From the NCBI RefSeq assembly GCF_017656475.1, contig NZ_JACDNT010000012.1:1-57906 (forward strand): a DNA stretch of 57,906 nt, written 5' to 3'. The notes below the pieces were generated by a model that did no database searches, was not told the origin of the DNA, and saw only the letters and a program-made list of their open reading frames with translations. Positions within the stretch are counted from its first letter, which is position 1. Every line of letters starts with the position of its first letter. Positions 4,987 to 46,672 of this stretch are shown one piece after another. The position numbers were made by a program, and so were the translations under genes. The DNA comes from Archaeoglobus sp. Its GTDB lineage: Archaea > Halobacteriota > Archaeoglobi > Archaeoglobales > Archaeoglobaceae.

Positions 4987-5684
4987 AGAGGTTCAAATTC
5001 CAGTACAAGGAGACGATCGTAACTATCCTTACGGAGAGCGAGGAGTTCTACAAGATAGCGGTAAATGCAATTCTTGAAGCAAGGAGCGAGATTGAGAGCT
5101 ACATCCTCCACAATCCGGACTTCTTCACAAGCTACGAGCCTATCGATTGCTCAGGAGGTGAAATTATAAACAGAATGTGCAGGGCGGGTGAGATTGCTGG
5201 AGTGGGGCCGATGGCAGCAGTTGCGGGAACGATTGCGTCATATGCAGTTGAGAGGATGATCGAAGCTGGAGCGAAGCTTGCTGTGGTTGACAACGGCGGA
5301 GATATTGTCATCCACACGGACAGGGAGTTGTTGATTGGAATCTACCCCTCCAATTTGGCTTTCAAAGTTCAACCAGTAGACTACATGGCAATCTGTACCT
5401 CAAGTGGGAAAATAGGCCACTCAGTAAGCTTTGGGAAGGCAGATGCTGCCACAGTTATTTCAAGAGACGGGAGTGTGGCTGATGCTCTTGCCACTGCATT
5501 GGGGAACACAATTGGGGATTTTGGCAAGGACGAGCTTGAAAGGACGGTATCCGAATTTTACAAAAAATACTCCAAGTTTGCTGAAGGGATTCTCGTCATA
5601 AAAGACGATTTGATAGCCATGGCTGGTAATCTTCCACCCATCGTTTCTGCCAAGTCAGGAGAGGACCTGATCACTAAGGGGTAG
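4983..5684 (+). CDS. UPF0280 family protein (ApbE-like fold)
   Basis: The 233-residue protein matches the UPF0280 pattern: GVGPMAAVAGTIASYAVE, AVVDNGGDIVI, and the GHSVSFGKADAATVIS segment. The AVDNGGD and HSVSFGKADAAT motifs resemble those of ApbE FAD:protein FMN transferases. The biochemical role of UPF0280 is not established. It starts inside the stop region of the preceding flavoprotein gene (4-base overlap), which suggests a flavin-related job, but that is inference. Confidence 0.85.
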   Translation: MKRFKFQYKETIVTILTESEEFYKIAVNAILEARSEIESYILHNPDFFTSYEPIDCSGGEIINRMCRAGEIAGVGPMAAVAGTIASYAVERMIEAGAKLAVVDNGGDIVIHTDRELLIGIYPSNLAFKVQPVDYMAICTSSGKIGHSVSFGKADAATVISRDGSVADALATALGNTIGDFGKDELERTVSEFYKKYSKFAEGILVIKDDLIAMAGNLPPIVSAKSGEDLITKG

Positions 5685-35641: not shown

Positions 35642-35714
35642 GGCCCGGATGGGGTAGTGGTCATCCTCTGGGACTGTGGATCCCAGGAGCCGGGTTCGAA
35701 TCCCGGTCCGGGCC
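35642..35714 (+). tRNA. tRNA-His (anticodon GTG)
   Basis: Folds as a cloverleaf: acceptor stem GCCCGGA (35643-35649) pairs with TCCGGGC (35707-35713), anticodon stem TGGGA/TCCCA around the loop CTGTGGA (anticodon GTG), and T arm CCGGG-TTCGAAT-CCCGG. An extra G at 35642 opposite C at 35714 is the G-1:C73 pair diagnostic of tRNA-His. CCA is not completely encoded. Its 3' end is the left attachment site of the integrated element. Confidence 0.95.
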
Positions 35715-35715
35715 C
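35704..35715 (+). repeat. Left attachment site (attL core)
   Basis: CGGTCCGGGCCC at the 3' end of tRNA-His; the same 12 bases recur at 57841-57852 in the same orientation. It is adjacent to the integrase gene, as is usual for tRNA-targeting tyrosine recombinases. Confidence 0.8.
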
Positions 35716-35785: not shown

Positions 35786-37009
35786 ATGATTATGGTGGAC
35801 ATGGAGACCTGGAGGAGCATAGACTACGAGGGCGCACTCAAGAGGGAGCTTAGGCTCCTCGAAAGGAGCCCAATTTCCGAGAAGAACAAGAAGTTGATTC
35901 TGAGGTACATGAACCACAGGTTTGCGAGGGGAATCAGCATAGCGAGGGTGCAGAGGGAGATGAAGTCCCTTAGGCTGCTGTGCGAGAAGTTCGATGCAGA
36001 CCTTGAGAACCTCGACGAGGACAGTGTTGAAGATCTTCTCGCATCCGTCGAGTTGAGTTATGACAAACTCAACACCATAAACGAGTACAAGAAGGCTCTA
36101 AAGTACTTCCTGAAATTTCGGGGAAAAGAGGAGCTGGCGAACAAAATCAAGAGAAAGGAGCCACAGGACAACGAGCTGACGAGGGACGACCTTCTGAGTG
36201 TCGATGAGGTGCTGAAGCTCGTGAGTGTGGCGATGAACGACAGGGATCCAGCACTCATCATGTGCCACCTCGACCTCGCATGCAGACCAGAGGAGGTCCT
36301 CACCCTCACAGTGGGGGACTTCGTGAGGGACCCATGGGGCATAAGGGTCGAGATGCGGAGGAGCAAGACCTTCCGCCGGTCGCCCCACCTGAGCTTCTCG
36401 TTGCCTTATGTCTCCAGGTGGTTGAGTATTCATCCCCTCAAGAATGATCCAAATGCTCCGATGTGGCTTGACCTCAACAAGTTCCGCAATGGTGTGGTGA
36501 TGCCGATAGATAACGCTGCTTACGATCGCATCCTCGACAGACTGTTCAAAAGGGCTGGGATAAGGAAGAGGAAGCGCTTTTCCCCCTACAACTTCAGGCA
36601 CACAGGGATAACGCTCTGGTCGGTGCTTCTGACGGAGCAGCAGTTGAGCAAGAGGAGCGGACACATTCCAGGCTCGAGGCATCTGAGGAGGTATGCGAAG
36701 CTCGTCGATGCAGATGCCGATAAGAAGATCCTCAAGGAGCTGGGGCTGATCAATGGAGATGAGATGGAGCCTGACGTGAAGCGCCTGCAGCCGGTAAAGT
36801 GCGGCATCTGCGGGGAGTTCAACGAGCCCTTCAGGCAGAGGTGTTGGAAGTGCAAGGCGGCTCTGGACCCCGCAAAGCTGGCCATGGAGTTCGGAGACGA
36901 GGAGATAATCGAGGCAGTGATGGACGACAGCTTAGAGAGGCTGATTGAAGAGAAGATAAAGAATATGCTTGTTGAGATTCTTAAAGCTGAAGGAGAAATC
37001 AAATCTTAA
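35786..37009 (+). CDS. int: Tyrosine recombinase (integrase) with C-terminal zinc ribbon
   Basis: The 407-residue integrase has an N-terminal SAM-like helical domain (residues ~15-125) and a catalytic domain: Arg167 (ACRPEEVL), Lys194, Tyr268-x-x-Arg271 (PYNFRHTG), His293 (SGHIPG) and nucleophile Tyr303 (LRRYAKL). The usual first His of HxxR is Tyr here. Near residues 339-356 there is a CxxC-x10-CxxC zinc ribbon, followed by an acidic helix. ATG 35786 lies 23 bases after a TATA box; frames further upstream run through the tRNA and are ignored. The gene is intact and does not carry the att site inside it. Confidence 0.92.
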   Translation: MIMVDMETWRSIDYEGALKRELRLLERSPISEKNKKLILRYMNHRFARGISIARVQREMKSLRLLCEKFDADLENLDEDSVEDLLASVELSYDKLNTINEYKKALKYFLKFRGKEELANKIKRKEPQDNELTRDDLLSVDEVLKLVSVAMNDRDPALIMCHLDLACRPEEVLTLTVGDFVRDPWGIRVEMRRSKTFRRSPHLSFSLPYVSRWLSIHPLKNDPNAPMWLDLNKFRNGVVMPIDNAAYDRILDRLFKRAGIRKRKRFSPYNFRHTGITLWSVLLTEQQLSKRSGHIPGSRHLRRYAKLVDADADKKILKELGLINGDEMEPDVKRLQPVKCGICGEFNEPFRQRCWKCKAALDPAKLAMEFGDEEIIEAVMDDSLERLIEEKIKNMLVEILKAEGEIKS

Positions 37010-40041: not shown

Positions 40042-40773
40042 TCAGCCCTCCGTTTCGATCCTCGGGGCCAGGATGTACTCCACCCTGACGTCGTCTCCGT
40101 CGAGGACGAACCTCGCCGGGTAGTCGTTGCCAAGGTGGATCGTCAGCACATCCTTCGGCTTTGCGGCCTTGCAGAACTCCTTGAGGTACTCGACGGCGAA
40201 CATGCTCCTCGCCTCCCCTCCGTTGTAGTCCACTAATTTGTCGGAGGGGAAGGTGGCCCTGATCGAGTCCATGTCCCCCTGCGCCTCCATCACGAATGCT
40301 TCTCCGTCTGTCTGCAGCACCACCGCGTCCGAGATCTTCTCCGCCAGACCCACGACCTTCTTGAAGTCCTCCAGGGCTATTTCCACCACGGCCGGGAGCT
40401 CAAGGTTGGGGACCTTGGGCTCCCTCCTGATGGACTCCGGCTTCAGCAGAGGGAGGGTGTAGGAGATCCTGCCGTTGCTGAGTGTGATCCTGTCTCCTAT
40501 CTCGAGGTCGATGATGTCTCTGGAGGAGAAGGCCCTGATGGTGTTCTTCAGCCTGTCGAGGTCCAGACCTGCGGTGAGTTTGCCATTGAAGCTTTCGAAG
40601 GCCGAACCCCGGACGTCGATGATGACCATCGCCACATTCTCCGGGTTCACCGCCCTGATGTGCAGGCCCTCGTCGAAGTGGGCCCTGACCTCCCAGGCGA
40701 TCACGCTCGCTGCTTTGACCACGTCGGCGAGGATGCCAGCCCTCAATCTGCCCTTAAAGCCCAGGACCTGCAT
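40042..40773 (-). CDS. pcn: Sliding clamp (PCNA)
   Basis: The 243-residue protein has the two-domain clamp fold: an N-terminal domain with the usual AVNPENVAMVIIDV region, an interdomain connector, and a C-terminal half ending FVLDGDDVRVEYILAPRIE. Length is typical of archaeal PCNA. It encircles DNA and tethers polymerases and nucleases. As an extra-chromosomal copy it could redirect host DNA polymerase to the element. Its ATG overlaps a TGATG junction (see the repeated cassette). Confidence 0.93.
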   Translation of the reverse strand: MQVLGFKGRLRAGILADVVKAASVIAWEVRAHFDEGLHIRAVNPENVAMVIIDVRGSAFESFNGKLTAGLDLDRLKNTIRAFSSRDIIDLEIGDRITLSNGRISYTLPLLKPESIRREPKVPNLELPAVVEIALEDFKKVVGLAEKISDAVVLQTDGEAFVMEAQGDMDSIRATFPSDKLVDYNGGEARSMFAVEYLKEFCKAAKPKDVLTIHLGNDYPARFVLDGDDVRVEYILAPRIETEG

Positions 40774-40790
40774 CAGGCATCAGCCACCTC
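40771..40790 (-). repeat. Repeated stop-start cassette, copy 1
   Basis: Minus-strand GAGGTGGCTGATGCCTGATG combines a ribosome binding site, a TGA stop and the ATG of PCNA. Near-copies lie at 40978-40997, 41265-41284 and 41408-41427. Confidence 0.6.
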
Positions 40791-40797
40791 TTCCACC

Positions 40798-40980
40798 TCA
40801 TCCTCTCTGCCCTCCTTCAGAAGAGCCAGGTGGCCACTTGAGTTCAACCCATTTCTTAATCGACGGATTGAACGGGCAGATTGGCTTTTTTTCAGTATTA
40901 AACTCTGGAACAATCAGAATGCACGGATTTTCTGGATCACAATCGTAGCATACAAAAATTCGAGTTGAAAAGGCAAACAT
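40798..40980 (-). CDS. Small Cys-containing protein, 60 residues
   Basis: A 60-residue frame with VCYDCDPENPCILIV and ICPF, a possible metal site of Cys residues. It starts by TGATG overlap with the gene upstream. In another frame the same stretch runs to a TGA that overlaps the PCNA start and would end EDEVEEVADA, like the ends of the genes upstream; a frameshift in this gene is therefore possible. Confidence 0.5.
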   Translation of the reverse strand: MFAFSTRIFVCYDCDPENPCILIVPEFNTEKKPICPFNPSIKKWVELKWPPGSSEGGQRG

Positions 40981-40997
40981 CAGGCATCAGCCTCCTC
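40978..40997 (-). repeat. Repeated stop-start cassette, copy 2
   Basis: Minus-strand GAGGAGGCTGATGCCTGATG: the end of the 95-residue gene and the start of the 60-residue gene. Confidence 0.6.
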
Positions 40998-41267
40998 AAA
41001 CTTTCTGAAATCGCCAGCGATAAACTCCACATCCTTGAAAACGACGAATGCGTAAGTTGGGTTGCTAAGGAATAGTCTGAGATCTCTGTTATTGCTGAAA
41101 ACTTTCTCTGAGAAGGCAAAACCGATTCGGAAGTATTTTTTGCGTTTAGATGGAGCTGATAACTGCCCTTCTAAATCTTCTGATATCACCACGTACTTGT
41201 AGCCGTCCTTTTTCATCTTCTGCAGTAGATCAATAAACTCATCCACGGTGCCAACCATCGTCGTCAT
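40980..41267 (-). CDS. Unknown 95-residue protein
   Basis: Begins MTTMVGTVDEFIDLLQKM, with beta strands YKYVVISED and YAFVVFKDVEF, and ends FEEADA. Mixed alpha-beta, no recognised family. Start and stop both lie in the repeated TGATG junctions. Confidence 0.6.
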   Translation of the reverse strand: MTTMVGTVDEFIDLLQKMKKDGYKYVVISEDLEGQLSAPSKRKKYFRIGFAFSEKVFSNNRDLRLFLSNPTYAFVVFKDVEFIAGDFRKFEEADA

Positions 41268-41284
41268 CACGCATCAGCCTCCTC
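41265..41284 (-). repeat. Repeated stop-start cassette, copy 3
   Basis: Minus-strand GAGGAGGCTGATGCGTGATG joins the 47-residue Cys-rich gene to the 95-residue gene. Confidence 0.6.
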
Positions 41285-41410
41285 CTCTAAAAGCTCCTCA
41301 TCGACTTCAGGAGTCACGCATCTCCGTGCCCTAATCTCAATAATCTCTGCTTCACAGAAACCTCTGTCATTGTAGCGGCAATCTACATTGTTGCATTCAA
41401 CAGCAGGCAT
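41267..41410 (-). CDS. DUF1540-like Cys-rich small protein
   Basis: A 47-residue gene. It encodes PAVECNNVDCRYNDRGFCEA then EIIEIRARRC: the Cys pattern (C-x4-C-x7-C and a later Cys) resembles DUF1540, a small metal-binding domain. It ends EEEADA and overlaps the next ATG by one base (TGATG). Confidence 0.65.
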   Translation of the reverse strand: MPAVECNNVDCRYNDRGFCEAEIIEIRARRCVTPEVDEELLEEEADA

Positions 41411-41427
41411 CAGGCATCACCTCATGG
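41408..41427 (-). repeat. Repeated stop-start cassette, copy 4
   Basis: Minus-strand CCATGAGGTGATGCCTGATG, a slightly divergent copy with a 2-base gap relative to the others, used by the 47-residue gene. Confidence 0.5.
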
Positions 41428-41623
41428 CCAAACAAACCTCTTTACCACACAATCGCCCAAGCCCTCCCACAGGGATGTACCAGGCACATCTTGGTCCGAT
41501 GCAGACGGGTTCTTGCACCTTGGCTGGAACGCCGGCTATTGTGTAGGCGAGGGCTCTGAGCGGGCAGATCTTTGGCTCTGGCCTCTTTTGTTCGCTTAAA
41601 CCAGACACAACAACCTCCTCCAT
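41417..41623 (-). CDS. Cys-rich small protein
   Basis: The 68-residue protein has four spaced Cys groups (KICPLRALAY, VCIGPRCAWYIP, LCGKEVC), likely a zinc or iron-sulfur site. This pattern (CPLRA...GPRCAWY) occurs in small archaeal proteins of unknown role. It overlaps the gene upstream by TGATG. Confidence 0.65.
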   Translation of the reverse strand: MEEVVVSGLSEQKRPEPKICPLRALAYTIAGVPAKVQEPVCIGPRCAWYIPVGGLGRLCGKEVCLAMR

Positions 41624-41937: not shown

Positions 41938-42058
41938 TATTTGTTTTTGCAACTCATCTTATTTAATGGTTGCGGTTTTGCAACCACTATTCAAAATTGA
42001 AACTAAAAATTAAAATACTTCGATAAAATATTTTACCAAAAGTCGGCGAGGAGATAGT
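41938..42058. promoter_or_regulatory. Divergent control region with palindromic operator
   Basis: TATTTAATGGTTGCGGTTTT from 41961, followed by GCAACC, contains the hairpin-like palindrome GGTTGC-n6-GCAACC (41968-41985). An extra TTTGCAAC lies at 41946-41953. The block from 41959 to 42000 closely matches the region at 44766-44807. It drives the leftward PCNA operon and, through ATTAAAATAC around 42010-42020, the rightward 42059 gene. Confidence 0.65.
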
Positions 42059-45197: not shown

Positions 45198-45983
45198 TTA
45201 AGCAAGAAATTCTTCGATACTCGGTTGTATGAGCTTTTCAATGTCTGACTTCCTTGGGTAGACGACTGAAATTATCAGCCAAGTATTGTAGAGATTGTGA
45301 GTTCCCAGAACGAAGTATAGGTGCTTCTTCTTCGGTAAATCCTCGTAAAACCTCTCCCTGACTTTAAAGGAGGCTACTTCTGGACCGTGCCTTTTCAAGG
45401 TGTTTAAATACAACATTCCTAGTTCCCAGTCCTCGCACATAATTCTGTGCTCTATGTGACAGTCCTGACAGCAATGAAAAACATACCTAAATTTCTTGTC
45501 AATGGGATCTATTTTCACCGCACTCTTACCATCAGTAAGAGTTATTTGCTTAGACATTTTTACGAGTTTTGCGCCGTATTCACTCTCTTCCCAGAAGAAA
45601 TCCTTTATTATCGGTTTAACCACGCAAAGTGAAACCTCACTATCGGGTTTTTCTTGGGTTTCGTCGAGGTTCACGAGCTTCTCGTCCAGGCGTCTCTTAA
45701 TCTCCCTATAATCTTCCTCCTCGAGAACTTTTATCGAGTTCCAGTCTATTTTTCTACTTTCAGGCCTCCTGTCTGAGGGTTTATCATCCTCCAGTTTGTA
45801 CTCGATCCATGTTTTCTTCTTGAATTTTTGCTGACTTCCTCTCCAGAATAGCTGCCATGGAACGGGGTATATCCTTCTCCACTCGTTATCCTCGGTGAGA
45901 CCGGCAATACAAACAAGATGTTCGTACTTCTTACTTACGACAGGGTACGTTTTGGCCAAAACCAGCAATCTTTCGGTTTTCAA
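45198..45983 (-). CDS. Dual OB-domain-like protein
   Basis: The 261-residue protein resembles proteins called dual OB domain that pair with DUF488: YPVVSKKYEHLVCIAGLTEDNEWRRIYPVPW at the start, then KTWIEYKLEDDKPSDRRPESRK, and a Cys/His cluster (FHCCQDCHIEHRIMCEDWE) that may bind zinc. A nucleic-acid-binding role is likely but not shown. It overlaps the DUF488 gene by 4 bases. Confidence 0.6.
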   Translation of the reverse strand: MKTERLLVLAKTYPVVSKKYEHLVCIAGLTEDNEWRRIYPVPWQLFWRGSQQKFKKKTWIEYKLEDDKPSDRRPESRKIDWNSIKVLEEEDYREIKRRLDEKLVNLDETQEKPDSEVSLCVVKPIIKDFFWEESEYGAKLVKMSKQITLTDGKSAVKIDPIDKKFRYVFHCCQDCHIEHRIMCEDWELGMLYLNTLKRHGPEVASFKVRERFYEDLPKKKHLYFVLGTHNLYNTWLIISVVYPRKSDIEKLIQPSIEEFLA

Positions 45984-46594
45984 AGGTGTATCACCTCAAA
46001 ACCGTCTCTCTCAAGAAACTCGGCAATTATCGATCTGTGACACTCGCGCCAATCAGCCTCAAAACACATGAGAGCGCTGGTTTTCGTGGAGACGTAAGAC
46101 TCTAACCTCTTTAGCTCTTCCGTACGCTCCTCCAAATATTTTCGGTACAATCTCGCAAACTCGGAGAAACTCATTAACTTGGATCGCAAATCGTGCCGCA
46201 ACTCCTTGGGAGCTCCGAGGGATGTTAGGGATATGTACTCTATACCCGCCAGTCTAAGCTCTTTTTCCAGTGCCCTCTTTGAGAACCCATTTTTTCTACT
46301 GAGAGGTAGTTCCCTAACGTCTATCAGCCTCACGATATTGTGCTCGAGGAGCTCGTCTATAAACTCGTCAACCGTCTTACCCTCGTAGCCGATGGTGTAT
46401 ACTTTACCAACTCCACTCCTCTTTCCAAGAAGCTCGGAAGCAGGTTTGAATGGGTCTTTCTCCACTATTAACTTGCCTTTAGAGTATTCCATGAGTACTT
46501 CATCTCCTTTTTTTAAGTCCCAGGTCTCAGCGACTTCCTTAGGAAGGGCAATGTAAAAAGTACCCTTGTGGTACTGGACCTTTCTTCTATACAT
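45980..46594 (-). CDS. AbrB-DUF488 fusion protein
   Basis: About 204 residues. An N-terminal SpoVT/AbrB domain (KGTFYIALPKEVAETWDLKKGDEVLMEYSKGKLIVEK) is fused to a DUF488 domain (VYTIGYEGKTVDEFIDELLEHNIVRLIDVRELPLSRKNGFSK, then LMCFEADWRECHRSIIAEFL). ATG 46594 was chosen; TATA AAATATTTATCC lies 30-40 bases upstream. An AbrB fusion to DUF488 is unusual. Confidence 0.8.
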   Translation of the reverse strand: MYRRKVQYHKGTFYIALPKEVAETWDLKKGDEVLMEYSKGKLIVEKDPFKPASELLGKRSGVGKVYTIGYEGKTVDEFIDELLEHNIVRLIDVRELPLSRKNGFSKRALEKELRLAGIEYISLTSLGAPKELRHDLRSKLMSFSEFARLYRKYLEERTEELKRLESYVSTKTSALMCFEADWRECHRSIIAEFLERDGFEVIHL

Positions 46595-46672
46595 GTTCTC
46601 ACCGTTACCCCAAGGAATCCCCAAGGATAAATATTTTTCTCTTTTTAAATTTGCTTTTTCAACAACACGATC

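Follow-up and report, generated by a model that had tools for sequence, protein, structure and literature searches.

Integron gene-cassette arrays comprise small orphan genes that each end in a repeat and are gained and lost as units; the integron integrase acts on attC sites. In cluster K mycobacteriophages, the Start-Associated Sequence (SAS) is a short, one-directional Shine-Dalgarno repeat found just before the start codons of genes from many families. It lies in non-structural regions and is almost absent from the host (PMC3203893). SAS elements conform to the 13-bp consensus GGGATAGGAGCCC, are located 3-7 nt before the start and may include the stop of the preceding gene; 17-bp inverted repeats accompany half of the genes that have an SAS (PMC3203893). 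The PeSLs of T4-type phages (Arbiol 2010, Comeau 2014) are joints between small genes that consist of a promoter and a stem-loop, and they have been proposed to permit modular shuffling (as outlined in PMC4503421). In Haloferax volcanii, TGATG overlaps between genes lead to strict translational coupling by termination-reinitiation (PMC6728339).

The 20-nt cassette described here (consensus of 27 copies, RAGGAGGCTGATGCCTGATG) is proposed to be a portable terminator-initiator adapter of small-gene arrays in integrated elements of the heat-loving Archaeoglobi, which would serve both in translational coupling and as a patch for recombination; we put the probability of this reading at roughly 0.6. 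The nearest known thing is the SAS. The cassette works like an SAS, being likewise a short, one-directional Shine-Dalgarno repeat that precedes genes of many families and is rare in the host. However, it is not an SAS, because both its sequence and its architecture differ. The two consensus sequences have AGGAG alone in common; the cassette takes in the end of the gene before it as well as a pair of TGATG units and the start codon; and the 17-bp inverted repeats are absent here, with little information carried by the flanks of the 27 copies. Also, genes have been exchanged with breakpoints at the cassette, a feature that does not figure in the description of SAS.

PeSLs, to judge from the outline given of them, may be regarded as a functional analogue with respect to shuffling, in that module exchange at a repeat is also found at the cassette. 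However, a PeSL acts in transcription, whereas the cassette is a translation joint of archaeal elements. Its 20 nt form a hairpin of at most 4 bp and leave no room for a promoter, and the early promoter and terminator stem-loop by which PeSLs are outlined were not found in it. Termination-reinitiation gene pairs (PMC6728339) have a similar stop-start overlap with the Shine-Dalgarno sequence inside the upstream gene, as seen at 20 of the 27 copies, but each ordinary pair has its own sequence, whereas here one 20-mer is used across unrelated pairs. A search of the open-licence literature found no report of a comparable joint in archaeal elements.

The likeness to integrons lies in the array of small orphan genes, each with an end repeat and gained or lost as a unit. 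In contrast to attC, the joint is only 20 nt long, is partly coding and carries the start of the next gene. A recombinase acting on the 20-mer, as the integron integrase does on attC, would account for directly repeated sites that bound single-gene modules and for the gain and loss of modules as wholes, but is highly improbable: the unit lacks a conserved inverted repeat and covariation, and no recombinase was seen beside the arrays. The one integrase found, in an unsystematic look for such genes, is located at a tRNA gene.

The window (the whole stretch of DNA analyzed, 57,906 nucleotides) is one entire contig from the 2.04-Mb, 92-contig assembly of an Archaeoglobi genome. The stretch from tRNA-His to the contig end looks like an integrated mobile element (Table 1). 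The integrase gene adjoins the tRNA-His gene, and because the 3' end of this tRNA has no second copy within the window, the far end of the element does not seem to lie there. A second PCNA gene of the assembly, on contig C35, was taken to be that of the host. Other element genes encode a PolB-type exonuclease, a LamG protein and an ATPase resembling that of Pyrococcus/Thermococcus plasmids, for example the 12.2-kb plasmid of Pyrococcus sp. 12/1. Close relatives of the element PCNA occur in JAPDIY010000058 (locus L080, identical to L005; 89% identity) and JAPDIW010000028 (locus L096, identical to L006; 84%). Two adjacent genes at 45198-46624 on the minus strand match PDC-M19A (DUF488 with an N-terminus resembling MazE) and PDC-M19B, which form a candidate defence pair in PADLOC.

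Table 1. Coordinates of element genes and cassette copies in the window
Feature	Coordinates	Strand	Remarks
tRNA-His	35643-35715	+	Probable integration site of the element
Tyrosine integrase	35972-37009	+	Pfam PF00589, exactly at cut-off; start codon provisional
Element PCNA (sliding clamp)	40042-40773	-	Pfam PF02747; relatives 84-89% identical in L080 and L096
Cassette copy GAGGTGGCTGATGCCTGATG	40771-40790	-	Before PCNA; cassette also precedes PCNA in L080 and L096
60-aa gene, Cys-rich	40798-40980	-	Distant relatives in genus g2, behind derived cassette
Cassette copy, exact consensus	40978-40997	-	End of 95-aa gene (EEADA), start of 60-aa gene
95-aa gene	40980-41267	-	
Cassette copy GAGGAGGCTGATGCGTGATG	41265-41284	-	End of DUF1540 gene (EEADA), start of 95-aa gene
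DUF1540 gene, Cys-rich, 47 aa	41267-41410	-	Pfam PF07561; exchanged module
Partial copy, 12-nt core TGATGCCTGATG	41408-41419	-	Before DUF1540 gene, behind full GAGGTGAT Shine-Dalgarno
68-aa gene (ICPLRALAYTIAG family)	41417-41623	-	C-end frame-shifted relative to L096 homologue
Leader gene, 91 aa	41623-41898	-	Ends FGGVV, TGATG; relatives head arrays in genus

The minus-strand operon runs from the leader gene through the 68-aa gene, DUF1540, the 95-aa gene, the 60-aa gene and PCNA to the exonuclease gene. Upstream of the leader gene, an AT-rich stretch contains the inverted repeat TGGTTGCAAAACCGCAACCA (about 41968-41987, minus strand), which is possibly the operator of the operon. Judging by its shifted C-terminal end, the 68-aa gene appears to be either degraded or affected by an assembly error. 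The DUF1540 protein is 100% identical in L096, where its gene directly precedes PCNA, and relatives of the 95-aa gene were not found among the 60 genomes searched. Within the window's array, Pfam matches were obtained for DUF1540 and PCNA alone, and other arrays gave only weak zinc-ribbon matches. The array proteins of the window had no match in PADLOC, nor did the PCNA or leader protein in a viral contig collection.

The sequence GAGGAGGCTGATGCCTGATG is found on the minus strand of the window once exactly and twice with one mismatch (the copies at 40771 and 41265), against a chance expectation of 0.01. These are the only copies with at most two mismatches in the 2.04-Mb assembly. The earlier note had counted four near-identical copies, each encoding EEADA as the C-terminus of the preceding gene product. 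Three of the four stand; the site at 41408-41427 (CCATGAGGTGATGCCTGATG) has only its last 12 bases in common with the cassette and differs from it at 7 positions overall. The EEADA terminus holds for the copies at 41265 and 40978. It does not hold at 40771, where the TGA of the 60-aa gene (40798-40800) already lies 8 nt upstream and EEVADA is read in another frame, nor at 41408, where the upstream 68-aa frame terminates in ..AMR. The ribosome binding site and start codon that the same note had placed at each junction were seen at all four. Each site finishes with the ATG of the next gene (in order of coordinate, those for PCNA, the 60-aa protein, the 95-aa protein and DUF1540), behind a Shine-Dalgarno sequence of the GAGG/GGAGG type (GAGGTGG at 40771).

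Searched with up to two mismatches, 60 genomes yielded 11 copies in G005, 9 in G003, 3 in the genome of the window and 2 in G007, with 0 or 1 in each of the others. Screening 59 genomes from the class with at most one mismatch added a second genus, g2 (G063, G064, G066 and G008), for a total of 8 genomes in 2 of 16 genera. The reversed pattern had 0 matches in both searches. A 17-mer scan of the viral contig collection returned matches in 4 contigs, which is about the estimated chance level. It had been suggested that related elements would join the cassette to other small genes, and this is the case both on other contigs of the genus and in the second genus. Nor is the cassette missing from relatives that have the same genes, which had been named as a sign of coincidence: in both close relatives it directly precedes PCNA, behind a 39-aa Cys-rich gene (L080) or DUF1540 (L096), and in g2 relatives of the 60-aa gene have their start codon behind a derivative of the cassette, GGAGGCTGATGC. 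The view of the cassette as a module for adding small genes upstream of PCNA thus survives as to the module, but not as to its confinement there, for copies also lie on the downstream side of PCNA, and some loci that carry them have no PCNA gene close by.

Because all of its parts are ordinary for archaeal operons, a strong Shine-Dalgarno sequence and a stop-start overlap might in principle yield the cassette repeatedly by chance. Junctions were therefore counted in ten genomes by a search for GGAGG-N8-TGATG with no preset N8. In G000, G003 and G005, only CTGATGCC recurs within a genome among 45 occurrences, and always in array loci. In seven genomes of the second genus (93 occurrences), the 8-mers that recur within a genome are CTGATGCC, its variant CTGATGCT and a second one, TCGAGGGC. 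Host junctions of the same form have different spacers, and the cassette is near-absent from host operons. Convergence was rejected on these spacer counts and, given also the chance expectation for the window and the empty reversed-pattern control, is the least probable of the explanations considered.

The second type of cassette is GAGGAGGTCGAGGGCTGATG (tail EEVEG), with four copies in G066 and a single copy in both G029 and G008. In the g2 loci L114, L116 and L098, GAGGAGGTCGAGGGCTGATG is repeated between unrelated genes. The two types are probably one family, because GAGGAGGTCGATGCCTGATG (in L072) is intermediate between them.

Among the 27 copies, each of the 20 positions carries 0.9-2.0 bits of information, and conservation drops sharply at both edges, with mostly less than 0.4 bits outside. 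The 20 nt contain AGGAGG, a pair of TGATG units set 7 nt apart, and the ATG of the next gene. The stops of the TGATG units cover two of the three reading frames. When the upstream gene is in frame 0, its product ends in EEADA and the second TGA serves as its stop; when it is in frame 2, the first TGA does so (twice in L073, and in L079); only the third frame reads through the cassette (once each in L075 and L072). At 20 of the 27 copies, an upstream open frame of at least 25 codons ends in the cassette. The families joined in this way number about 30 unrelated ones (35 single-linkage clusters, a few with doubtful frames). An RNA hairpin was considered as the conserved feature and rejected: at -6.0 kcal/mol it is stable, but variants break it without compensation.

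Alternatively, EEADA might be a shared C-terminal protein signal, with a role in turnover or partner binding, for instance, and the DNA would be conserved for the sake of the peptide. An open frame able to read the tail does precede 20 of the 27 copies. However, intact copies exist behind genes in other frames and third codon positions are conserved, so it is the nucleotides and not the peptide that are conserved. The copies were collected by nucleotide search, which favors nucleotide conservation, and the out-of-frame copies are thus the stronger argument; the protein tag was rejected. The variant tails VDA, GDA and VEG also keep the DNA layout, and EADA tails with recoded DNA were not seen in the junction list of the arrays. 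A protein signal is thus highly improbable, and the EEADA tail is a by-product.

Gain, loss and exchange of genes end at the cassette. Several genes are followed, after the same cassette, by different partners, namely DUF1540, MKVREV, FEDVKR and the 208/220-aa family. DUF1540 plus cassette is followed by the 95-aa gene in the window and by PCNA in L096. Behind MKVREV plus cassette lies MPLYDKFG (L074) or MEFIELP (L080), where 91% identity over 700 nt ends in both cassettes. Behind FEDVKR plus cassette lies MPFITLK (L074) or MKRIITI (L096), both loci being in genome G003, and the FEDVKR block is 100% identical over 127 nt, ending on the last base of the cassette. Filled and empty sites are also found. 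Where DUF1540 directly precedes PCNA in L096, the window has two further modules of gene plus cassette in between (about 0.49 kb). L080 exceeds L096 by one module of 401 nt, situated between a 208/220-aa gene and a 59-aa gene; L097 has neither this module nor the 59-aa gene. The DUF1540 modules of the window and L096 are identical at 123 of 124 positions (99%), versus 82% for the preceding gene and 87% for PCNA. Identity shifts at the partial copy at 41408, which forms the upstream edge of the module, and at the cassette, a pattern that points to a single-module transfer.

The main rival holds that the cassette is only an optimized re-initiation signal under selection for translation. Illegitimate recombination would occur at any boundary, only recombinants that respect gene boundaries would survive, and the cassette would play no part in recombination. 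Homology breaks are indeed found at cassettes in 25 of 25 comparisons and at non-cassette stop-start junctions in 103 of 132 (these comparisons are not independent). Because most other junctions break too, gene-by-gene mosaicism is general in these elements, the cassette is not the sole exchange point, and exchanges may not need it; the idea that breakpoints are unique to the cassette was ruled out. Rather, the cassette is the most standardized joint of this general mosaicism. The Shine-Dalgarno sequence of the cassette pairs with nearly all of the archaeal anti-Shine-Dalgarno sequence, as generally known, at -13.2 kcal/mol with one bulged C. This strength also agrees with selection for translation, but pairing without the bulged C would be stronger (-17.0 kcal/mol), so the cassette is not the pairing optimum. 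Selection for translation alone also leaves unexplained why CTGATGCC occurs in unrelated genes when other junctions of host and elements use different spacers, and why cassettes occur in consecutive runs (13 neighbouring pairs versus 5.2 expected from within-locus shuffles, p=5e-5). We consider this explanation unlikely, although it is the one to be taken most seriously beside the adapter.

Some further joints were observed in these arrays. In L074 (G003:C2, oriented positions 5178-5525), a zinc-ribbon gene, which in L072 ends in the cassette, runs via a cassette-like DEEADAN stretch into a coiled-coil segment; this looks like a fusion of two genes through mutation of the cassette between them. 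At 490-1212 of L080, an antisense pair that resembles HicA/HicB has been inserted after the leader gene; next comes a duplicate of the leader end, TTTGGAGGTGTTGTGTGATG, another reused joint. The joint GGAGGTGATACCTTGATCC before the exonuclease gene is common to L080 (3105) and L096 (2070), where it lies behind two unrelated genes, encoding a 124-aa protein (L080) and a 238-aa protein resembling DNA methyltransferases (L096). In the window, PCNA is directly in that place.

In the adapter reading, the cassette looks like a ready-made socket for adding genes to an operon. Translation of any gene placed ahead of it would end near the start codon that follows, and the following gene would be translated by termination-reinitiation, via the Shine-Dalgarno sequence and the TGATG units. 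The Shine-Dalgarno pairing and the stop-start coupling known from Haloferax suggest that the leader's promoter would drive expression of an inserted gene, which would hand ribosomes on to the next gene. At the DNA level, the shared 20 nt, or the 12-nt core, could be a patch for homologous or microhomology-dependent recombination, by which whole genes would be inserted, deleted or exchanged while the Shine-Dalgarno sequence, stop and start are restored each time. From the sequences, we infer that the identity shared between cassettes is what drives the exchanges, and that the sequence persists through selection on expression. Against the adapter, the genes before some copies (in L075 and L072) have a frame that does not stop in the cassette, and, against a role in recombination, 20 bp is short for ordinary homologous recombination.

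A bolder version, which we regard as doubtful, is a gene-capture platform, in which a lineage-specific 20-nt adapter (type A, ..CTGATGCC.., or type B, ..TCGAGGGC..) is at once recombination joint and expression signal. If so, an ORF entering in either of two frames would be expressed at once behind the leader gene, and the arrays would be integron-like with a translation signal as the joint.

How viruses and plasmids extend operons while keeping expression intact is an open question. The cassette makes the present idea directly testable: it is a defined 20-mer that has stops in two frames, its filled and empty sites occur naturally, and single modules have been exchanged recently. For annotation, EEADA and EEVEG tails signal a junction rather than homology. 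The arrays gather dozens of unknown small proteins, many of them Cys-rich, in one recognizable place, and the cassette can be used as bait for further arrays.
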